Assembly (NCBI GenBank): GCA_944321955.1
Contig: CALUNG010000005.1
Location: 62,001 to 126,000, forward strand
Direction: 5' to 3'
Length of the DNA: 64,000 nucleotides
Source of the DNA: an uncultured Alistipes sp.
Lineage (GTDB): Bacteria; Bacteroidota; Bacteroidia; Bacteroidales; Rikenellaceae
Both the position numbers and the translations under genes were made by a program. Numbering within the stretch: position 1 is the stretch's first letter; every line of letters begins with the position of its first letter. Below are positions 27,119 to 56,473 of the stretch, piece after piece. The notes beneath the pieces are model-generated. The model searched no databases and was not told the DNA's origin. It saw nothing but the letters and a program-made list of their open reading frames with translations.

Positions 27119-27328
27119 AATTGCCACGCCAAAACTCGGACGCCACAAAGAGCGTGATATTTTTTTGAAAAAAATATGAAAAAAATTACATTATACAATG
27201 TACGAAATCGGGGGCTGGCGATTCGTTTGTTTAAGCATTGTGACACGAATTGTGACGGATTGTAATATTTGTCTTTTTGAGGTTTTTTTGCATTCGGTTT
27301 AGGACGTGTCATGTTGCTGAATTTTTCA

Positions 27329-27336
27329 TATCTTTG
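27329..27336 (+). promoter_or_regulatory. -7 box of the SusC-SusD-BACON operon
   Basis: TATCTTTG is a perfect TAnnTTTG only three bases before the ATG at 27340. A transcript from it would start at about 27342, which argues for translation from a downstream codon such as the GTG at 27385. No convincing TTTG lies at the -33 distance. Confidence 0.5.
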
Positions 27337-27339
27337 CGA

Positions 27340-30300
27340 ATGGATAGGGTTAATGAAGAAACCGTTAAACTTTTAGTGTGCTTAGTGAATAAAATTCTAC
27401 TACTCAGATTCTATTTCACCTCGCCTTTTTTCAGGAAGATCATATCGGTTTTCGTGATCATGCTGTTTGCATTGGGCAACGCATACGGTCAGAGCGTGAA
27501 GATAACGGGTACGGTTACCGACGGTTCGGGCAATCCGATGGTCGGCGTGACGGTTGTACCCGAGGACAAGGGGAAGGATCTCTCCGCGGCCGGTACCACC
27601 ACAGATCTCGACGGTAAATATTCGGTGACGGTGTCCCGCACCCCGACTCTTTCGCTGAACTTTTCATTCCTGGGAATGAAGGATAAGAGCGTCGAGGTGG
27701 GTAACCGTACGGTCATCGACGTGACGCTCGAGGAGGATGCCATCGGAGTCGAGAGCGTCGTGGTCACGGGTATCTACACCCGCAAGGCCGAGAGCTTTAC
27801 GGGAGCCGTGAATACCATCTCGGCTTCGGCGCTGCAGGCCGTGAGCAATCAGAACGCCTTCGAGGCTCTGAAGAACATCGACCCGTCGCTGATGATACTC
27901 GACAATCTCGAAGCGGGTAGCGACCCCAACGCCATGGCGTCGATGCGCCTGCGCGGTACGTCGTCGTTCCCTGCTGACGGTACCGCCCTCAAGAGCAACT
28001 TCATCGATGACCCGAACATGCCGCTGTTCATACTCGACGGTTTCGAGACCAGGGCCGAAACCATCATGGACATGGACATGAACCGTATCCAGAGCATCAC
28101 CATTCTGAAGGACGCCTCGGCAAAGGCCATCTACGGATCGAAGGCCGGCAACGGTGTGATCGTCATCGAGACCAAGTCGCTCAATTCGGGTCAGACGCTC
28201 GTATCGTACAACGGTACGGTTTCGCTGGAGGTTCCCGACCTGTCGAGCTACAACCTCTGCAACTCTCTTGAGAAACTCGAGATCGAGCGCCGCGAGGGAT
28301 TCTATTCGGACAGAACCTATACCGATGATGTCGTTGAGGGTATGACCATTTACTACCGCCGTCTGAAGAGGGCCCTCGAAGGCGAGGATACCTACTGGCT
28401 TGCCAAGCCGTTGCGTCTGAGCGTCAGCCACAAGCACTCGCTGAGCATCGAGCTCGGTTCGAAGGACCTGCGCTCGATCACCACCTTCGGCTACAGCGAC
28501 ACTCAGGGTGCGATGAAGGGTTCGGACCGCCAGACGGTGCAGGGCAGCATGAACCTGTCGTATCGCCGCGGCAAGTGGGTGTTCCGCAACATCATGAGCG
28601 TTGCCTACATGGACAGCAACGACTCTCCGTACGGAACGTTCGATACCTATACGACACTCAACCCGTATGAGTCGCCATATACCGATGAGGGTCAGTTGCG
28701 CCAGTATCTCAACAGTTCCTATGACGAGACGGATAAGATAGGCAACCCTCTTTACGATGCACAGCTCAACACGAAACTTACCGACAGCTATATCAACGTC
28801 ATCAACAACTTCTACGCCGAGTTTCAGGCTTGGGACTTTCTCAAGCTGGTTGCCCGTGTGGGAGTGGACACCAAGCGCACCGAAGCCGAGGAGTTCTATC
28901 CGGCGCAGCACTCGAAGTTCGTCGACCTGATGACCAGCGATTCGGATGACAACCGCCTGCGTGCCGGATCGTACGACGCCACCAACGGTAAGTCGACGAC
29001 CTTTTCGGGCGACATCTCGGCGCAGTTGAACAAGTCGTTCGACGGCGGCCACGACCTCTTCGCCACGTTGCAGTACTCGCTCTCGCAGCAGAAGTACAGT
29101 GAGGTTACGCACTATGCCGAGGGTTTCCCCAACAGCTCGATGGACGACATCACGTTTGCCCGCCAGTACGCTTCGGAGAAGACCCCGACGGGATATACCG
29201 GTCTGAACCGTGAGATCGGTGCCCTGGCCACGGCCGGATACAGTTATCAGGACCGTTACATGGTAGATGCTACGCTGCGTGCCAACGGATCGTCGGCGTT
29301 CGGTACCAACAAGCGATGGGCTCTGTTCTGGAGTGCCGGTGTGGCGTGGAACCTCCACAAGGAGCGTTTCCTCTCGTCTGCCAAGTGGCTGCAGCAGCTG
29401 AAACTTCGTTTCTCGGCCGGATCGTCGGGTAACCAGAACTTTTCGTCGGTAAATTCGCTGGCCGTCTACAAATACTACAACGACCGCTTCTACAACGGCT
29501 TTACGGGTGTTACGCTGAACAATCTCGAGAACCCAAATATCGGCTGGGAGCAGAAGATGGACTACAACCTGGGTCTCGATTTCCGCACGAAGGACATCAC
29601 CCTTACGGTCGATGCCTATATCTCCGATACGGAGAACATGATATTCTCGCGTGCACTGATACCGTCGGTGGGCTTCACGACCTTCAGCGACAATATGGGC
29701 AAGGTTCGTAACAAAGGTATCGAGACATCTCTGTCGTACCGTGTCCTGAGCGGACGCAACGGCTTCCTGATACTTACGGGCAAGATCGCCGTGAACGACA
29801 ACCGCATACTTCGCATCTCCGACGCCCTGCGCGAGTACAACCGCCTGCAGCAGGAGCAGGCTGCCGAGTCGGGCAGCACGGCTCCGGTCATACAGTACCG
29901 CGACGGTCTTCCGGTCAACTCGATATGGGCGGTACCGTCGCTGGGTATCGATCCCGTTACCGGATATGAGATATTCATCAATTCGGCAGGAAATCTGGTA
30001 AACGAGTGGAGTGCCTCGAACCTGGCATACTGCGGTTCGTCGGACAACCTCTACAACGGCAACTTCAGCATATCCGGAGAATGGAAAGGATTAGGAATAA
30101 ACGCCGTATGTACATATTACGGGGGGGGGGTACAAATATAACACCACTCTCGTAAACAAGGTAGAAAACGTCTATATAGGCGACAATGTCGACCGCCGCA
30201 TCTACTCTTCGCGCTGGTACTACAAGGGTCAGGTTGCGCAGTATCGCAACGGATACTATGACCCGACACAAGCCACTTCCCGATTCGTACAGCGCGACAA

Positions 30301-30493
30301 CGTACTGAACATCTCGTCGGTATCCATCTATTATGAATTCCCGCAGAAGCTCATTTCCAAGGCGAAACTGAGCCGTCTGCGTCTGACGTTGCTTGCCAAC
30401 GACCTCTATACTTTTTCATCAATCGAAATCGAACGCGGAACATCGTATCCCTATGCGCGAACCTTCTCGTTCTCGGTTTCGGCAACATTCTGA
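27340..30493 (+). CDS. SusC-like TonB-dependent receptor, frame broken at a G10 tract
   Basis: An outer-membrane importer of the SusC/RagA family. It has a signal peptide (VFVIMLFALGNAYGQ), a carboxypeptidase-D-like N-terminal domain (VKITGTVTDGSGNPMVGVTV), a TonB-box region (ESVVVTGIYTRKAESFTGA), a plug and a long beta-barrel. There is no STN domain, so FecR-type control is not expected. At 30121 ten G shift the frame and translation ends at 30141 (933 residues). With nine G the frame reads YGGGYKYNTTLVNKVENV and on to FSVSATF at 30493, about 1,050 residues with the C-terminal Phe expected for barrel assembly. The start could be ATG 27340 or GTG 27385 (NKILLLRFYF); the latter fits the promoter better. 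Confidence 0.88.
30121..30130 (+). repeat. G10 homopolymer in the susC-like coding region
   Basis: Ten consecutive G begin exactly at a codon boundary (927 codons after 27340). The count of ten puts the downstream 360 bases out of frame; nine keeps it open. This is the classic layout of a slipped-strand contingency tract, though an assembly error is possible. Confidence 0.9.
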
Positions 30494-30499
30494 TGCGCA

Positions 30500-31999
30500 A
30501 TGAAAGGAATATTATATAAAATATTGTTCGTATTGCCGCTTTCGGCACTTGTTTTCAGTTCGTGCGAGAATTGGCTCGAGGCGTCGTCGAGCTCCAACGT
30601 AGAGGCCGACAAGCTCTTCCAGACGCGCGAAGGCTTCCATGACGCGCTGACCGGAATCTACATGAACATGGGTGAGAGCGATGCCTATGGCGGTTACATG
30701 ACATGGTACTGCAACGACTGCATTGCATATCCGTTGGGAACGACTTCCAGCATTACCAATTATTTTCAGCGCCATGAATACGGCAACAACACGACCAGGC
30801 CGATGGTCGAGGCCATCTGGTCGCGCTGTTACAATATCGTGGCCAACATCAACATGATTCTGCGCGAGCTTGAGGCGCGCCGCAACGTCATAGCGAACCA
30901 GGACGAATACAACATCATCAAGGGGGAGCTGCTGGGCCTGCGTGCGTATATCCACTTCGACCTGTTGCGCCTGTACGGCGTAGCCGTATGGAATGCCGAC
31001 AATCAGGGGAAACTGACGGTTCCCTACTGCCGCGAATATTCGGCGAATGTTACGCCGCAGCGTTCGTATGCCGATACCGAGGCTCTTCTGATGGAAGATC
31101 TCAACGGGGCGATCGAGGCGCTTGGCGAGAGTGATCCTTTGGTTATGGATGCGTCGCGCAAGGCCGAGTTCGAGTCCAACTACAATCTCGACGGTTACTG
31201 GTCGAAACGACAGAAACACTTCAATTACTATACGGCTCTGGGACTGATGGCCCGCGTTTACCAGTGGAAGGACGACAAGGCGAAGGCGGCCGAGTATGCG
31301 CAGCAGGTTATCGACGGGGCCGAGGGCTCTTTCGTGACGTGGGCGAATCCCGATGCGATCCTCACGGCGACAAATGACGACAACCGCGACTGGACCTTCT
31401 CGACGGAGCATATCTTCTCGCTGGAGGTTACCAACCTGTCGACGAATACCTCCGGACTGCTGTTCGACGTTGCCGGTTCACAGAACGGCATATGCCTGCC
31501 TTCCAATACGGTCGACAACCTGCTCTTCGTACGTTACGATGAGGCGACTGGTTCGCAGGCCGGAGTCGAGGACCTTCGCGGACCGGCCATGCGCCTGCGT
31601 GTGGGAGCCTACGGCTATTATGACTACAAACTCTACTATTCGACAAATTATGCATCGGCCTACAGAAATCTGATGCCGATGATGAAGTTGTCCGAAATGT
31701 ACTACATCGTTGCCGAAAACTACGTTGCTCTCGGTCGGAACGGTGATGCGCTGGCCGCGTTGGACAAGGTGCGCGTTGCACGCGGTGTCTCCGATGCCTA
31801 TGAGTCGACTGCGGATGCCGCAACCGAACTGATGAAGGAGTACTACCGCGAGTTCATCAGCGAAGGGCAACTGGTATACTACCTGAAACATTGCCGCGTA
31901 TCGTCGTCGATCGAACCGTCGTTCGACGTGACGTACGAGGATCTTGTCTACCCGTATCCCGTCGACGAGGTCAACTACGGGCGCGTGCAGGAGTTGTAA
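30500..31999 (+). CDS. SusD/RagB-like surface lipoprotein, 499 aa
   Basis: The lid and ligand-binding partner of SusC-type channels, anchored outside the cell. The lipobox is FSSC with Cys22, followed by ENWLEASSSSNVEADKLFQT, the usual SusD opening. TPR-like helices follow (GELLGLRAYIHFDLLRLYG; YYTALGLMARVYQWKDDKAKAAEYAQQVID), with the C-terminal SusD signature MPMMKLSEMYYIVAENYVALG and LDKVRVARG, and EYYREFISEGQLVYYLKH near the end. It starts six bases after the reconstructed stop of the SusC gene, so the pair is one operon. The ligand is unknown; no glycoside hydrolase lies nearby. Confidence 0.93.
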   Translation: MKGILYKILFVLPLSALVFSSCENWLEASSSSNVEADKLFQTREGFHDALTGIYMNMGESDAYGGYMTWYCNDCIAYPLGTTSSITNYFQRHEYGNNTTRPMVEAIWSRCYNIVANINMILRELEARRNVIANQDEYNIIKGELLGLRAYIHFDLLRLYGVAVWNADNQGKLTVPYCREYSANVTPQRSYADTEALLMEDLNGAIEALGESDPLVMDASRKAEFESNYNLDGYWSKRQKHFNYYTALGLMARVYQWKDDKAKAAEYAQQVIDGAEGSFVTWANPDAILTATNDDNRDWTFSTEHIFSLEVTNLSTNTSGLLFDVAGSQNGICLPSNTVDNLLFVRYDEATGSQAGVEDLRGPAMRLRVGAYGYYDYKLYYSTNYASAYRNLMPMMKLSEMYYIVAENYVALGRNGDALAALDKVRVARGVSDAYESTADAATELMKEYYREFISEGQLVYYLKHCRVSSSIEPSFDVTYEDLVYPYPVDEVNYGRVQEL

Positions 32000-32024: not shown

Positions 32025-32843
32025 ATGAACAGATTCATACATGCGATTTTCATATTGACGGTTGTTACCGTCGTGGCGGCGACATTCGGTTCATGCAGGA
32101 AATCGGAGATCCCGGTTTTCGACATTTCCGATTCGGCCGTGCATTTCACTTCGAAGTCGAATGCATTCTCGATGCGCGGCATGACCGAGGAGACGGCCGA
32201 TCTGTCGATCGAGTTGGAATATATAGGTCCTGTGACCGACTATGACCGCGAGGTGGCACTGAAGGTCACCGGCGAGGGTGAAGATGCCGCCGTCGAGGGC
32301 GTAGACTTTACAATCAAGAGTTCGATGGTGCCGGCCGGGTCGCTTGAGGGCCGGGTTGTCCTGGAAGCAAGGAAGCTCGACGACTCGACGCCCCGCAAGA
32401 GCGTCGTGCTGGAGATCGTGCCCAACGGGAACTTCGTTGTCGGATTCAAAGCCTATGCCAGTACGACGGTTACGTGGTCGGAGGAGTATGTGCGTCCTTC
32501 GGGTTATGTGTGGACGGACTGGTACAACTATTTCAGCCCCTATTACAGCAGGGCCATTCACGAACTCTATATCGAGACATTCGGTGAGGATATAGAGCGC
32601 TATGTCTTAAGTCCTTCACTGCCTAACGAGGAGAACGGCTACATATACAAGTCTTACACGTGGTGGATGTCGGCGTCGCGGACGCTTCGCGAGAAGGTTC
32701 AGCAGCACGACCGCGAGAATCCCGATTCACCGCTGATGCACAGCGACGACTGCATGTATTACAAGTCGTATGAAGTTGCAGCCGGAGCCGGCGAGGTGCC
32801 GTCGCGCATACCGACCATACTCGAAACGCTTGAAGTTCTGTAA
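32025..32843 (+). CDS. DUF4843-type lipoprotein, 272 aa
   Basis: A lipoprotein with Cys24 (FGSC) and residues RKSEIPVF following. The N-terminal half has the DUF4843 pattern: AVHFTSKSNAFSM, ELEYIGPVTDYDREVALKV, VEGVDFTIKSSMVPAGS and RKSVVLEIVPNGNF, a Calx-beta-like fold. The C-terminal part (WYNYFSPYYSRAIHELY) holds the conserved aromatic segment. This family is regularly encoded just after SusC-SusD pairs and before PKD-like lipoproteins. Its last base overlaps the ATG of the next gene. Function beyond surface ligand handling is unknown. Confidence 0.85.
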   Translation: MNRFIHAIFILTVVTVVAATFGSCRKSEIPVFDISDSAVHFTSKSNAFSMRGMTEETADLSIELEYIGPVTDYDREVALKVTGEGEDAAVEGVDFTIKSSMVPAGSLEGRVVLEARKLDDSTPRKSVVLEIVPNGNFVVGFKAYASTTVTWSEEYVRPSGYVWTDWYNYFSPYYSRAIHELYIETFGEDIERYVLSPSLPNEENGYIYKSYTWWMSASRTLREKVQQHDRENPDSPLMHSDDCMYYKSYEVAAGAGEVPSRIPTILETLEVL

Positions 32844-34390
32844 TGCTTATGAAAGTAAAAACCATATCCATAATATCGGCAATTGCCGCATGCGTGATGT
32901 TCGTGTCGTGCTACAAGGACCAGAGTACGGAGGCGACCGTCACGTTCCCCGACATCGTCATCGAGAATTCGGGCGAACCCATCAATATCGGCTATGGACA
33001 GACTCTCGAGATGGAGCCCAAGGTCCGTCAGGAGGGTTACGGTACGAGCGAACTGACATACCACTGGGAGATGGACCTGCGTCCGAATAATACGAACAAC
33101 CGTCTGGATCTGGGAACGGAACGGCATCTGTCGTTCGTTGTATCCAATTCGCCGTCGAACTCGCCGTATAATCTTACCCTGACGGTCACCAATCCCAAGC
33201 TCGGTATCTCGGCTATCTCCAACTGGGAGGTTTACGTCTCCAACTCCATGGGAGAGGGCCTTCTGGTTGCATATACGCGTGACGATGGCGTTACGAGCGA
33301 CCTGGACCTCGTACGTGCGGCCAATATCACGTACGATGCCCCGAGTTCGCCGCAATATGTCCGCAACCTCTATTCGCTCTCCAACGACGGAGCCACCATC
33401 GACGGCGAGGTGCGTGCCATGATTTCGCGCATGGCTTCGAACGGAGCCTCCTACAATGAGGGCTATGTCATTGTGGGAACCGACAAGGAGGTTCTTGGTC
33501 TTGATGCCCTCGATTACACGATCGACAGAAAGAATGCCGACCTGTTCAACAACTATTCGCCGGAGACGTACCGTGTCGATGCGCTGTTCAACTATGCCGG
33601 TTACATAAGCGGAATAGTTGTCAACAATGAGGCGTATGCCGTAACTTGTATGAATGACAACTATTATCTTGTACTCAACTATCCGACAGTTACGCGTAAT
33701 ATCTTCACGGCCGACAATGTCTCCAGCGGGGCTCTCGATGGCGGATTTATCGCGGTATTCGACGAGACCGAATGCAAGTTCGCCTCGATGGTGGGGTGGC
33801 AGGCATCGACCGCGTCGTTCACCTTCTGCAATTTCGACGATGCGTTCAGCCTTGCAGGCGCGAAGTCGTTGGGCGCAGGCTGCCTTAACAATCAGCGCAA
33901 TGCCTTTGTGATACGCGATGCCGAGGGCAAGGACCATCTCTGTATCAGCGATAAAGAATTCCCGTCCAACGTCACATCGTACGCCTTGACGCTGCCCGAG
34001 GTCGACGATGCCGTTTCGTTTGCCTTCTGCGACAATTCGGACATCTTCTACTACGCTACGCCCTCCAAGATATATGCTACGGTACTCTCTGGAAGCGTAA
34101 CCGTAACGCAGGCTTTGACATGGACCCCCGATTCGGCCGACGAGCGTATTACAAAGATACAGCACTACCGCCAGGCCTGGTATGGGTCCCAGAGGCTCGA
34201 TCTCAGTTACGCATTCGCGATACCGACCAACCGTACGCAGGTGGTTATCGTGACGCACAACGACAAGACGGGCGAAGGAAAGATCTACCTGCGCGGATTT
34301 AACGTGAGCACGGGCAAGTTTACCATGACTTCCAACGGCACGTTCGACGGTTTCGGCCGTATTACCGCTGTGGCCCCGACGATGAGATAA
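32843..34390 (+). CDS. PKD-like family lipoprotein, 515 aa
   Basis: Two starts are possible: ATG 32843, overlapping the previous stop, or ATG 32849 (MKVKTISII). From the second, the lipid cysteine is Cys21 (FVSC). A PKD-like domain is visible at ~45-135 (YGTSELTYHWEMDLRP, SPYNLTLTVTNPKLGISAISNWEVYV). The remaining ~370 residues resemble beta-propeller strands (GLLVAYTRDDG; DNYYLVLNYP; GGFIAVFDETECKF). The family accompanies SusCD-DUF4843 operons in Bacteroidota and is assumed to bind ligand at the cell surface; no enzyme motif was recognised. Confidence 0.83.
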   Translation: MLMKVKTISIISAIAACVMFVSCYKDQSTEATVTFPDIVIENSGEPINIGYGQTLEMEPKVRQEGYGTSELTYHWEMDLRPNNTNNRLDLGTERHLSFVVSNSPSNSPYNLTLTVTNPKLGISAISNWEVYVSNSMGEGLLVAYTRDDGVTSDLDLVRAANITYDAPSSPQYVRNLYSLSNDGATIDGEVRAMISRMASNGASYNEGYVIVGTDKEVLGLDALDYTIDRKNADLFNNYSPETYRVDALFNYAGYISGIVVNNEAYAVTCMNDNYYLVLNYPTVTRNIFTADNVSSGALDGGFIAVFDETECKFASMVGWQASTASFTFCNFDDAFSLAGAKSLGAGCLNNQRNAFVIRDAEGKDHLCISDKEFPSNVTSYALTLPEVDDAVSFAFCDNSDIFYYATPSKIYATVLSGSVTVTQALTWTPDSADERITKIQHYRQAWYGSQRLDLSYAFAIPTNRTQVVIVTHNDKTGEGKIYLRGFNVSTGKFTMTSNGTFDGFGRITAVAPTMR

Positions 34391-34432: not shown

Positions 34433-36517
34433 ATGAAAACTTTCAAACTTATGATTGCAGCGGCCGTAGCGCTGTTCGCAGTTGTCGGGTGCTCGAAGGA
34501 TACCACCGAGGACGCCCTGACGATGGGAACCACCGAGATTTCGGTTCCGGCCGCAGGCTCGACGCAGCCTTTGACATTCACGGCCAATACATCGTGGACC
34601 GTATCGAGCGACCAGGACTGGGTTACGTTCGACCGCATGAGCGGTGATGCCGGCGAGGCTACCGTCAACATGACCGTCGATGCCAATCCCGACTATGAGA
34701 ACCGTACGGCTACGGTTACGATCAAGGCCGGTACGAAGACCACTCTCTTCAAGGTCGTACAGAAGATGCTTGAGACCTTCTCTGCAGAGTTCGTATATGA
34801 GATAGGGCCCGAGGAGCAGACCATCGAGTTCGCCACGGAGTCGAACAAGGAGTACGAGTTCCTGATCGGCGAGGAGTGCGAGTCGTGGATCCGTCCCGCA
34901 GCCAGCCAGTCGGCCGTACCCGAGTCGTCGGTTGCCCGCTTCACCGTTTCGGCCAATACGTCGGTTGCCCCTCGTGAAGGACGCATCGTTGCCAAGGTCG
35001 GTGACGTCGCCTACGCCCTGATCGTAAAGCAGAATGCCGATTTCGAGTACATGACCGCAGCAACGGCTACGTGCTACGGCCGTACCATGAAGATCTATGA
35101 CGGTACTTACTACAAGTATAACGAGTACGGAATAGAGTTGACCAACGAAGAAGGCGTGAAGGTTGTTTTGGCAATTAACGCTGCACGTTCGGAAAACTAT
35201 CTGTCGGAACTTCCGGTTGGAACCTATACTGTCGATGCATCGGCATCCCACACTCCGGGAACCTTCTCCATCAAGACTTCTGACGGCAGCGAATCGGTTT
35301 ACACCACAATTTTCAATGGCGAGACCGAAACGACTGTTGCCGACGGAGAGATTTCGGTTGCAAAGGAGGGTAATACCTATACCATTCTCGCATCGCTCAT
35401 GGACAGCCGCGAGAACGTTCTCCGCTACTCGTTCGTAGGTGAGATTCCGACCATTGATGACAAGAGTCTCGGCGGATATTTCTATAAGCTCAACAGCGAG
35501 GGACAATACGATACCTATTTTTCATCCAAAGCCAATCTGTGGAGTCTGACTGTTCTTGTCAGCAAGGAACTTTCGTCAGACGCCAAGTCGTTCCCCGCAG
35601 CGTACATAGATTTTAACATCTATGGAGATTCTTCTACGGAGTTGCCGACCGGAACATTTACTTTCATGACGGGAGAGCAGGATTCGGAAATACCGTATGC
35701 AAACGGTAATTGGAACTACAAGACAGGTGATGCTACCAGTGGATCCGTTTATGATGAATACGATGACGAGGGCAACAATCGCGGTTGCAATGTTAAGGAC
35801 GGAAGTACGGTAACCATCAGCAAGAATGCCGACGGTACCTACAAATTTGAGTTCGACATGGATCTGGTTTATGAGGAAGAGGATTACACCTATGACGGCA
35901 CAGTTGATAATGTTGAGGTCCGCTCCGAAATAGGAAAATCCAAACTTGACCCGGTTCCTGATGGAGACATCGTTGCGGATAATACCGGCATATTTGGAGG
36001 AACTGCTCTGTATTGGGGTGACAAGGCCGTATTCGAAGCTCTCGATCCGGCTCCGTCGTTCTCGCTGCCGGAAGGCGTTTCGTTGTTGACTTTGGGCTAC
36101 ACCTATTTGAATGGTCTGCACCCGCTTTATCTTGGTATATGCGCACCTTGGACATTTGCTGGAACCTCCACTACGAGTCGCGATCCGCTTCCAGATGGAA
36201 CTTATACATTCTCGGAAACTCCCGAGTTAAACACGTTGGTGCCGCTGTTCAACAATGTAACTAATTATACATATTTCAAGAACGGCTATACCGGAACGTC
36301 TTACTTCGTTCACGGCGGTTCGATAACAATATCCGATTCGGGGCAGACGATTACTTTCGATTTGAAGATGTCTCCTTTTGCAGATGCTTCAGGTAAAGAC
36401 TACGATCGTACCAAAGAGTATTCTCTTACGGGAACGATGAAGACGAGTATTTCGGGAGTGCGTAATTACTCTAAGAATGCGAAATTTGCCAAGATTTGGA
36501 CAGATCCGCAGGAATAG
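34433..36517 (+). CDS. BACON-domain lipoprotein, 694 aa
   Basis: The signal peptide ends at Cys20 (VVGC). Residues ~38-105 are a BACON domain (SVPAAGSTQPLTFTANTSWTV; WVTFDRMSGDAGEATVNMTVDANPDYENRTATVTI). A second BACON-like unit follows at ~115-205 (FEFATESNKEY-like region, ESSVARFTVSANTSVAPREG). The C-terminal ~480 residues are beta-rich with two related halves (LPVGTYTVDASASHTPG; LPTGTFTFMTGEQDSEIP; LPDGTYTFSETPELN), perhaps three repeated beta-units. BACON domains are carbohydrate- or mucin-binding candidates. It is the last gene of the operon; an intrinsic terminator lies 33 bases after it. Confidence 0.87.
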   Translation: MKTFKLMIAAAVALFAVVGCSKDTTEDALTMGTTEISVPAAGSTQPLTFTANTSWTVSSDQDWVTFDRMSGDAGEATVNMTVDANPDYENRTATVTIKAGTKTTLFKVVQKMLETFSAEFVYEIGPEEQTIEFATESNKEYEFLIGEECESWIRPAASQSAVPESSVARFTVSANTSVAPREGRIVAKVGDVAYALIVKQNADFEYMTAATATCYGRTMKIYDGTYYKYNEYGIELTNEEGVKVVLAINAARSENYLSELPVGTYTVDASASHTPGTFSIKTSDGSESVYTTIFNGETETTVADGEISVAKEGNTYTILASLMDSRENVLRYSFVGEIPTIDDKSLGGYFYKLNSEGQYDTYFSSKANLWSLTVLVSKELSSDAKSFPAAYIDFNIYGDSSTELPTGTFTFMTGEQDSEIPYANGNWNYKTGDATSGSVYDEYDDEGNNRGCNVKDGSTVTISKNADGTYKFEFDMDLVYEEEDYTYDGTVDNVEVRSEIGKSKLDPVPDGDIVADNTGIFGGTALYWGDKAVFEALDPAPSFSLPEGVSLLTLGYTYLNGLHPLYLGICAPWTFAGTSTTSRDPLPDGTYTFSETPELNTLVPLFNNVTNYTYFKNGYTGTSYFVHGGSITISDSGQTITFDLKMSPFADASGKDYDRTKEYSLTGTMKTSISGVRNYSKNAKFAKIWTDPQE

Positions 36518-36590: not shown

Positions 36591-37268
36591 ACGTACCGCA
36601 GTCCGCGGGCCTATTCGTCGCCGCCGCGTATGTGTCTCCGCGGACGTGTTCCCGTGCATGTGTCTCCGCGTATGTATTTTCGTGCCCGTCAAACCTCGCT
36701 TTCCGGCCTGCTCCATATTCCCGCCCTGCCTATCCCGTTCCTCCGTTCTTGCTTTCCATTCCATCGTCCTTGTCCCCGCCGCCGTGCATGTGTTCCCGTG
36801 CCCCCTCCCGCTTCTGTTCCGTCTCTTCCTGCCCTCGCCCCCGTTCCACCCTGCGGCCTGTGCTCACCGTCTCCGCCGGCCGGCTTTCCAAGCCATGCCC
36901 GCTGTCCTCATTCTCCGTCCCGCCGGCTTCGCCCGGCCGCCGCAAGCCCCCCCCCACAAAAAAATATCACGCCCCGAAATCTCAAACCGCCGGTACGATA
37001 TGTCGTTGGCATCGACGGCAGGCGCGAAAAAAATGTCATGCCTCTGCATGTAAAATCCATGTCGCGCTTCGGCCTGAATTTTCAACTGAAAAGTTCCATA
37101 TCCGGTTGTTTTCATACATGGAGCAATAGTTTCCTGCAGAATGCTTTAGCTTCTGCGGGGCGAATGCGATGCGACAAACAGAACAGTTTGTGCGACGCCG
37201 AATGCCTGCCAGACGCGTGTGTGCCGCGATGACTTATCAACAGAGTGATGATAAAAAACAGAATAAAA

Positions 37269-37361: not shown

Positions 37362-38828
37362 ATGAAGCTCAGAAATCTGCTTATGATGATGCTTGCCGTA
37401 TTTTCGTTGACGTTTGCGGCCTGCGACGGTACTGATGAAGTAATTATCGATGACGGTACGGAACAACCCGATGGAGAGGATCCGACGGACGAACCCGACG
37501 ATCCGATTTACGGAGCGGAGTTTACCATAACCGTATCGGATATTACTCCCGTCGGCGCGCTGGTCAGTGTAGTACCGGTCGATGCTGCGGCAACATACTA
37601 TTTCGATGTGATAGAGAAGTCGTTTTATGACGAATATTCGGACAAGCTCCAGTTTGCCGAAGAGACTGTGGCGGAGGTTTCGGAGTTGGTTGGGGCTTTT
37701 GGCCTGACGTTCCAGGATATGCTGACTCAGGGCGAGTACGAACTCGAATATACTACTCTCGATCCTTCGACCGAATATTATGCCTACGCATTCCGTGTCG
37801 ACGCCGACGGTACGGTCAATTCGTCGTTCGTAACGACTGTGCCGTTCACCACGGCCGATGTCGTTCCTTCGTCGAACACCTTTACCGTAACGGAGGATGG
37901 CGGTTACATAACGGTAACCCCCACCAACAACGACCGCTACGTATGGGATGTGATGGAGACTGCGGTAATCGATGCCTTTACCGACGACCAGATCATCGAT
38001 TTGGTTGTCTATAACCGCGGTGCGGATCTGTCGGATTATACGGCTGTCGGTCCCGACTCGTACAACTATGCTGACATGCTGACGGTCGGCGTTTCGTATA
38101 CCGTTGTGGTATTCGGTTACGATCTGGCCCCGACGACCGGCCTTACCAGGTTCGAGTTCACGTTTGAGGGCGCGGGTGACGGCCCTGATTCGTCCGGTCT
38201 TGTGGATACCAACATTACGGGTGACATCGACTTGGATGCCTTCTACGGTGTGTCGGAATATCACGGTGACCTCTATGGATCCGGTACGGCCGTATGGAAG
38301 ATCGAAATGATGACTCTCCCCGGAGACAAATTCTTCCTGGAGGTTTATCGCGACCTTTCGACGGGCTTCTCCGATCCGTCGGGTACGTACGTGATCGATC
38401 CGACGAAGTCGATGGCTGTGGGTACGGCTCTTCCGGGATATGTCGAGCTCGGCGCAGACGGTAACCCGACAAGTTATGGCTGTTTCTACAGATCGAGCGA
38501 TTATGTAATGTATGCAGCGCTTGTCGAGGGTTCGGTAACCGTCACCAACAACAACGACGAAACGTATAGCGTTGTTGTCGATGCGAAGGATTCCAAGGGA
38601 CACAAGCTGACCTGCGACTTTACCGGCGATTTCGACGTGTACGACTGGTCGAATATGTCGCTGCCGTCATCCGCAGACGGCATGACGATCAAGGATGGCC
38701 TGCGCGACCCTGCATGCGTGCAGATGCAGCCCATGCGTAACATTTCGTCCGAAGATCACGTGCGTGAACTTGCTCCGACCGTTGCTTCGTACTCCCGTTT
38801 GGTCAATCGCCCGCTCGTGCGCCGATAA
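37362..38828 (+). CDS. Tandem FnIII-like surface lipoprotein A, 488 aa
   Basis: First of four paralogs. Signal peptide MKLRNLLMMML ends at Cys21 (FAAC), followed by an acidic stretch (DGTDEVIIDDGTEQPDGED) of the kind that directs lipoproteins to the cell surface in Bacteroidota. Two FnIII-like units with helical insertions follow: ~50-165 (FTITVSDITPVGALVSVVPV; TEYYAYAFRVDADGTV) and ~170-270 (NTFTVTEDGGYITVTPTNND; YTVVVFGYDLAPTTGLTRFEF). A third beta-domain spans ~285-440, with SVTVTNNNDETYSVVVDAKD. The tail is basic and ends RPLVRR. Ligand unknown. It is the most diverged copy at the C-terminus. Confidence 0.85.
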   Translation: MKLRNLLMMMLAVFSLTFAACDGTDEVIIDDGTEQPDGEDPTDEPDDPIYGAEFTITVSDITPVGALVSVVPVDAAATYYFDVIEKSFYDEYSDKLQFAEETVAEVSELVGAFGLTFQDMLTQGEYELEYTTLDPSTEYYAYAFRVDADGTVNSSFVTTVPFTTADVVPSSNTFTVTEDGGYITVTPTNNDRYVWDVMETAVIDAFTDDQIIDLVVYNRGADLSDYTAVGPDSYNYADMLTVGVSYTVVVFGYDLAPTTGLTRFEFTFEGAGDGPDSSGLVDTNITGDIDLDAFYGVSEYHGDLYGSGTAVWKIEMMTLPGDKFFLEVYRDLSTGFSDPSGTYVIDPTKSMAVGTALPGYVELGADGNPTSYGCFYRSSDYVMYAALVEGSVTVTNNNDETYSVVVDAKDSKGHKLTCDFTGDFDVYDWSNMSLPSSADGMTIKDGLRDPACVQMQPMRNISSEDHVRELAPTVASYSRLVNRPLVRR

Positions 38829-56464: not shown

Positions 56465-56473
56465 GGGGGGGGG
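56465..56473. repeat. G9 homopolymer between sigma and FecR genes
   Basis: Nine G on the plus strand (C on the transcribed strand) lie 21 bases downstream of the sigma-factor stop codon and about 180 bases before the FecR start. Confidence 0.8.

Follow-up and report, generated by a model that had tools for sequence, protein, structure and literature searches.

The SusC-like importer gene studied here reads as a single gene split at a run of ten G, and the locus is probably phase-variable by slipped-strand mispairing, an assessment that rests on sequence comparison. The run would be the mispairing site, at which a single G is gained or lost at replication, and each change in length would decide whether the final 120 residues of the SusC barrel are read in frame. 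The ten-G state of the assembly would be the OFF form. Because the end of the barrel and the C-terminal Phe are missing from its protein, the truncated SusC is unlikely to assemble and should fail to do so in the outer membrane, with presumed loss of the protein. The nine-G gene of a sister species would be the ON form; since that species carries it, the OFF state can probably revert, and both states should coexist in a population. Switching within a strain is likewise inferred, as would be any polar effect on the SusD partner and any benefit of switching, e.g. escape from phages or antibodies, or savings on an importer that is not in use. The length of the homopolymer sets the reading frame and differs between close relatives, with the rest of the gene intact, as is characteristic of slipped-strand loci.

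The SusC-like gene and its run of ten G

The window, i.e. the whole stretch of 64,000 nucleotides that was analysed, comes from contig 5 of a draft genome that totals 2.06 Mb in 30 contigs. On its forward strand, the first piece of a SusC-like TonB-dependent transporter extends from 27277 to 30141, as indicated by the ORF, by Pfam and by a SusC profile that we made from the sister species and ten other relatives. This piece contains the CarboxypepD_reg domain, the Plug and most of the barrel (Pfam values of 2.6e-12 for CarbopepD_reg_2, 9.1e-12 for Plug and 3.8e-14 for the barrel). Its start codon is uncertain, with in-frame ATGs at 27340 and 27463, among others. The stop comes directly after the G run (30121-30130, forward strand), which the sequence and the relatives point to as the proposed slippage site, the TAA of the ten-G frame being at 30139-30141. 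In another frame of the same strand, the 120 residues that complete the SusC barrel occupy 30131-30493, open and conserved, with a C-terminal Phe followed by the stop TGA at 30491-30493. Alone, this second piece matched no Pfam family. In the first piece, the match to the SusC profile runs to profile position 874; in the second, it covers positions 870 to 997 (E 1.1e-62). Since both pieces match one SusC profile, the comparison indicates that they are one gene split at the run, and no further frame break was found in about 2.8 kb 5' of the run or in the 363 bases 3' of it.

The succession of CarboxypepD_reg, Plug and barrel, then a SusD gene, is that of SusC/RagA TonB-linked outer membrane proteins, and the protein of the sister species aligns to the solved SusC homologue 8aa4_A over residues 3-1002 of 1005 (E 7.2e-56). 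Four genes follow on the forward strand: a SusD-like lipoprotein, the SusC partner (30500-31999; Pfam SusD-like_3 9.2e-14, SusD_RagB 2.5e-6), a DUF4843 protein (32025-32843; Pfam 5.7e-11), a PKD-like protein (32843-34390; Pfam PKD_2 2.6e-10) and a BACON-domain protein (34433-36517; Pfam BACON 5e-20). The spacing suggests that the last three probably belong to the same operon.

An earlier note on this DNA had described ten G that start at a codon boundary and a frame that ends at 30141, and both sequence and ORF confirm it. The lost end of the barrel is real, but it counts 120 residues and not the roughly 117 given in that note; likewise, the C-terminal Phe ahead of SusD is present, but its codon is 30488-30490, and 30493, where the note had put it, is the end of the stop. 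The proposal that nine G restore the frame is borne out by the sister species, whose gene with nine G is unbroken, and by the SusC profile that spans both pieces. GGG, the codon of the run, was rightly called rare elsewhere in the gene, the 75 other Gly codons being GGT (33), GGC (21), GGA (20) and GGG (1). In nineteen other window genes, GGG accounts for 37 of 1007 Gly codons, these codon counts resting on a set of 19 to 21 window genes of our own choice.

We compared the G runs of the window with two kinds of shuffled sequence. In whole-window dinucleotide shuffles, 6.45 runs of at least seven G are expected and 10 are observed, a number reached by 13 of the 100 shuffles; as a count, the long G runs in the window are nothing unusual. 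When synonymous codons were shuffled among 21 genes of the window, together 39.9 kb with the focal gene counted up to 30120, a run of at least nine arose 0.002 times per shuffle (2000 shuffles). The same 21 genes, the focal one up to the run, contain zero G or C runs of at least six, where 4.3 of length six are expected. A run of ten G inside coding sequence is unusual. The window contains two other runs of nine that seem to be intergenic, one at 36947-36955, ahead of a gene at 37362, and the other at 56465-56473, between a gene that by eye is sigma-factor-like and its neighbour.

The nearest relative of the gene is that of Candidatus Alistipes excrementipullorum (L040), the contig of which is letter for letter that of genome G006 (L053), a genome of the host's own genus; this makes the host an Alistipes species. 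This sister species has nine G at the run and 1005 residues unbroken from the contig start to the stop, the comparison of ten with nine G being one of two draft genomes. The 921 bases around the run found matches in 14 of 180 Alistipes genomes, and the whole of that stretch matched, besides the host genome, only in G006. Twelve distant homologues (41-60% identity) all keep the frame at the site. Gly-Gly-Gly is present there in the sister and in 8 of these twelve, and the longest G run at the site is six in Sphingobacterium faecale and three or less in the other eleven. Since the distant homologues keep the frame without a long G run, the long run is an acquired one. The pattern TAC, at least nine G and a nearby Tyr-Asn occurred, among the 180 Alistipes genomes, only in the host genome and the sister; no match was found in a plasmid collection, nor in viral contigs with a query of twelve window bases and eight G.

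Between the host and sister genes, the 120 codons beyond the run differ by 7 synonymous and 3 non-synonymous changes (dN/dS 0.13), compared with a dN/dS of 0.10 before the run and 0.12 in SusD, values that pair the host gene with an in-frame sister and pool the share of the broken lineage with that of the sister. The dS is 0.09 beyond the run vs 0.31 before it. Over window positions 27463-31999, compared with L053, dS jumps between 0.04 and 0.73 from block to block along susC, as if pieces had been exchanged between species. Because dS is unusually low beyond the run and uneven in blocks, the run shared by the two species may reflect a recent gene exchange, younger than the species, and not long retention.

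Run lengths and positions in Alistipes

Exact runs of nine G outnumber exact runs of seven in 160 of the 180 Alistipes genomes (4732 vs 1373 runs), compared with 9 of 88 genomes from 21 other genera of the family (551 vs 3522); this contrast is plain, although it counts related genomes and a Fisher value, which ignores their kinship, carries no valid probability. The 20 Alistipes genomes without an excess of G9 comprise 8 ties and 12 reversals, e.g. G001 and G017. The host genome contains 3, 2, 11 and 1 exact runs of seven, eight, nine and ten G, respectively. In G013, twenty evenly spaced stretches covering 400 kb exhibited 8046, 2146, 360, 9, 0, 1, 16 and 0 G and C runs of lengths 3 to 10, and in the whole genome runs of 7, 8, 9, 10 and 11 number 7, 7, 109, 8 and 3, respectively. 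The counts fall with length in five genomes from elsewhere in the family (e.g. 78, 24 and 7 for lengths 7, 8 and 9 in G202). Most Alistipes genomes present a two-peaked distribution, with lengths 6-8 scarce and a sharp peak at nine; the other genera mostly show decay, with exceptions such as G191 (51 G9 and no G7). Runs of at least ten are present in 137 of the 180 Alistipes genomes, some of them at contig ends.

For tracts of Campylobacter jejuni, excerpts of PMC8224891 report an insertion bias at lengths 8-9 and a deletion bias at 10-11. From the rates in those excerpts we computed a steady state in which nine is the commonest length (43%), ahead of ten (24%) and eight (21%). As the Alistipes length mode is nine, as these rates predict, the run in the window is taken as a likely slippage site.

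A general loss of mismatch repair was considered as the cause of the runs and rejected, because most genomes, the host genome among them, have both MutS and MutL domains; these are domains, from which activity is presumed. A MutS_III domain was found in 162 and a MutL domain in 174 of the 180 Alistipes genomes, and among the 70 genomes that are at least 90% complete the numbers are 68 for MutS and 70 for MutL. The Alistipes genomes with no MutS match (18) or no MutL match (6) are mostly incomplete; G016 and G157, 87% and 77% complete, had no MutS match.

The host genome carries twelve G or C runs of at least nine, of which 3 are in SusC-type genes, where about 0.5 would be expected from its 27 Plug domains at an assumed 3.1-3.2 kb per gene (P 0.011). 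Besides the focal run, a signal peptide has a C9 (L008) and a regulatory domain a G9 (L013), both in frame. The gene regions read around the 27 Plug matches were the focal one and 14 others, the top-scoring among the matches listed. In G016, 4 of 17 runs are in SusC-type genes (P 0.033, SusC share estimated in the same way). In G013, 3 runs were found in 78.7 kb of SusC-type genes vs 16 in the 400 kb of background, which is no excess, in a set of 20 of 86 genes that were the top-scoring among the matches listed and that leans towards unbroken genes.

We also pooled 85 runs in 85 loci, 66 of them of ten, 17 of eleven, one of twelve and one of thirteen. Thirty genomes contributed their first run each, and 60 places were hand-picked among the runs listed, which is not a random sample; L097, a stretch rich in G next to Ns, is excluded, as are runs less than 60 bases from a locus end. 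Nine of the 85 are in SusC-type genes, with P from 0.007 to 0.14 for an assumed SusC share of 4-7%. Taken together with the single genomes, a SusC-specific enrichment of runs is weak, unclear or absent. By codon usage, 44 pieces were coding-like, and 40 were given to Pfam. The share of genes out of frame in this sample is uninformative on their usual state, since it holds only runs of at least ten.

The nine SusC-type loci come from other species (L060, L070, L109, L111, L118, L124, L135, L136 and L137). In six of them the run puts signal peptide and mature protein into different frames; in L060 and L109 it splits the gene further in, and in L111 it is in frame. The second piece of L060 was recognised by the SusC profile and not by Pfam. 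The break in the focal gene comes late, unlike most SusC runs in the relatives. In four other loci from other Alistipes species (L055, L084, L126 and L130), G or C runs of 10-11 split hybrid two-component sensors with Reg_prop, Y_Y_Y, HisKA and HATPase domains into two frames. The other runs are in or beside unrelated genes, housekeeping ones included (matches to HSP70, GidA and AIR carboxylase), or between genes. At L069 (1501-1510, reverse strand), a G10 coincides with what by eye is the lipobox of a DUF5017 protein, the frame of which is broken there. Two runs of 11 G of genome G023, at L073 (1501-1511) and L140 (2001-2011), have similar AT-rich flanks, apparently between genes, and are possibly a repeated element.

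These distributions bear on the explanation that survives best beside a selected switch, namely that the run slips and the gene flips as an unselected by-product of mutation. It is compatible with the slipped-strand mechanism and concerns its purpose, and we consider it a serious possibility, albeit a doubtful one. In its favour, the 400 kb of G013 contain 40 runs of nine per Mb, partly between genes, the 20 G013 SusC-type genes examined show no excess, and the window's two other nine-base runs seem intergenic. The absence of any other run of at least six from the 21 window genes speaks against it, as do the runs of the pooled sample in SusC-type genes, six of nine at the signal peptide, and in the four split sensors; none of this is decisive.

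The earlier note had proposed a slipped-strand switch of the SusC gene. The part that finds support is a probable switch, considering a break only at the run, a sister with nine G and a conserved gene end (dN/dS 0.13). A dedicated SusC switch is too narrow, because the runs are genus-wide and lie at background density in the 20 of 86 SusC-type genes examined in G013. A broader reading, which we put forward tentatively and just short of calling it probable, is that Alistipes is a poly-G contingency genus, in which runs of six or seven would be driven to nine despite MutS and MutL, and runs in SusC and sensor genes would flip glycan-uptake loci. On the same tentative footing, the SusC runs, often at the signal peptide, would be the slippage counterpart of the inversions of Bacteroides.

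A second SusC gene and the remaining alternatives

The SusC gene of L124 was followed through its orthologues, found in six Alistipes species; it has a run at the end of the signal peptide. The run is of ten in G016, nine in G013, eight in G143, eleven in G012 and eight in G141, and is interrupted in G157. Read from the ATG, the gene encodes 1044 residues in G013 and 1043 in G157, and 43 to 50 in the other four, which are out of frame. The mature part is open in all six, over 1009 residues, or over 837 to the end of the fetched stretch in G143. For the out-of-frame copies of G012, G141 and G143, dN/dS is 0.067-0.077 at a dS of 0.37-0.64, and over all 15 pairs it ranges from 0.067 to 0.229. As long-dead genes would lack such low dN/dS values, these copies are unlikely to be long dead. 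The pattern fits a reversible poly-G switch and not decay, reversibility being argued from the several run lengths in relatives in which the gene is still under selection. Either four assemblies are wrong in different ways, or the OFF state would be short-lived and reversible. The comparison of homologous loci that the earlier note had suggested was informative in this way: it gave nine vs ten G for the focal gene and its sister, and runs in other SusC genes of Alistipes, among them this one gene with lengths from 8 to 11.

The same data weigh on the possibility of an assembly or sequencing error, with the true run in frame and the gene intact, which we regard as unlikely. Homopolymer length is a common error class, the host genome is a draft in 30 contigs, and the gene of the sister is unbroken. 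However, an error would leave unexplained so rare a run inside a gene, the pile-up of G9 with few G7 and G8, and the four different run lengths in five assemblies of the L124 gene. Even if the length given here were wrong, the run would remain a slippage-prone site.

It is quite improbable that the break is real and is bypassed at expression, the RNA polymerase or the ribosome slipping on the G run to give some full-length SusC. Long homopolymers can be slippage sites, and polymerase slippage in poly(A) tracts of Buchnera is mentioned in excerpts of PMC2831843. The runs of 8, 10 and 11 in the L124 gene would, however, need slips of differing sizes or directions.

A fixed pseudogene, i.e. an old frameshift in a gene out of use, is very unlikely. 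The frame is indeed broken in the host assembly, but there is no other break, the end of the gene and SusD are conserved (dN/dS 0.13 and 0.12), and out-of-frame copies of the L124 gene are under strong constraint. The earlier note had named a fixed ten-G run with a decayed downstream part as the outcome that would speak for a plain pseudogene; what we found downstream is an open and conserved frame. Inversion of promoter DNA, as in the SusC/SusD loci of Bacteroides fragilis, with the G run incidental, is hardly credible. A 14-base AT-rich inverted pair does lie upstream (27170-27183 and 27322-27335, 93%), but its complexity is low, and 1.2 kb of sequence contains four pairs of this weak kind.

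Significance and comparison with known systems

If the slipped-strand reading of the locus is true, a common gut genus would switch importers by the mechanism of Campylobacter and Neisseria, and not by inversions of the Bacteroides type. The 4732 runs of nine G in 180 genomes correspond to about 26 per Alistipes genome on average, many of which may be intergenic. Strain-level work on Alistipes would then need to record the lengths of such runs, differences that are readily written off as errors. Immune responses can target SusC proteins; excerpts of PMC10939037 mention a T-cell epitope. Among the papers listed by literature searches on Alistipes, Bacteroides, Bacteroidales and Bacteroidetes, we found no report of homopolymer switching of SusC genes, which is weak evidence of absence. 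A literature match for Ornithobacterium hominis was set aside, as it concerned 'susceptibility' and not SusC.

Phase-variable SusC/SusD loci of Bacteroides fragilis were reportedly described by Nakayama-Imaohji et al. 2009. That work is cited in PMC12632263 and PMC11868660, and inversions near susC/susD also appear in PMC10939037. The B. fragilis loci resemble the locus in the window in gene family and in their setting in gut Bacteroidales, with on/off switching there. A site-specific recombinase inverts DNA in B. fragilis, whereas here an in-frame homopolymer would change its length.

To our knowledge, Campylobacter is without MutS/MutL mismatch repair, in contrast to Alistipes, where most genomes have MutS and MutL domains. 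Large repeat-based repertoires are listed for Neisseria, Campylobacter, Helicobacter and Treponema in the partial text of the review PMC11868660. The loci of C. jejuni, as far as the excerpts of PMC8224891 describe them, are similar to those considered here in having G or C runs within frames (there G7 to G13), with single-base changes biased to middle lengths, and in counting surface-related genes among the targets. They differ in phylum and in targets, which here are a SusC importer and, in the relatives, hybrid two-component sensors. The Alistipes length peak at nine is sharper, many of its runs look intergenic, and switching is deduced here from sequence.

The mutation-prone homopolymers of Mycobacterium tuberculosis, in the part of PMC11868660 that treats them, likewise involve frameshifts at homopolymers within genes, with reversibility inferred at most. 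Unlike that case, the Alistipes relatives exhibit several lengths of one and the same run, in a gene that is kept under selection.
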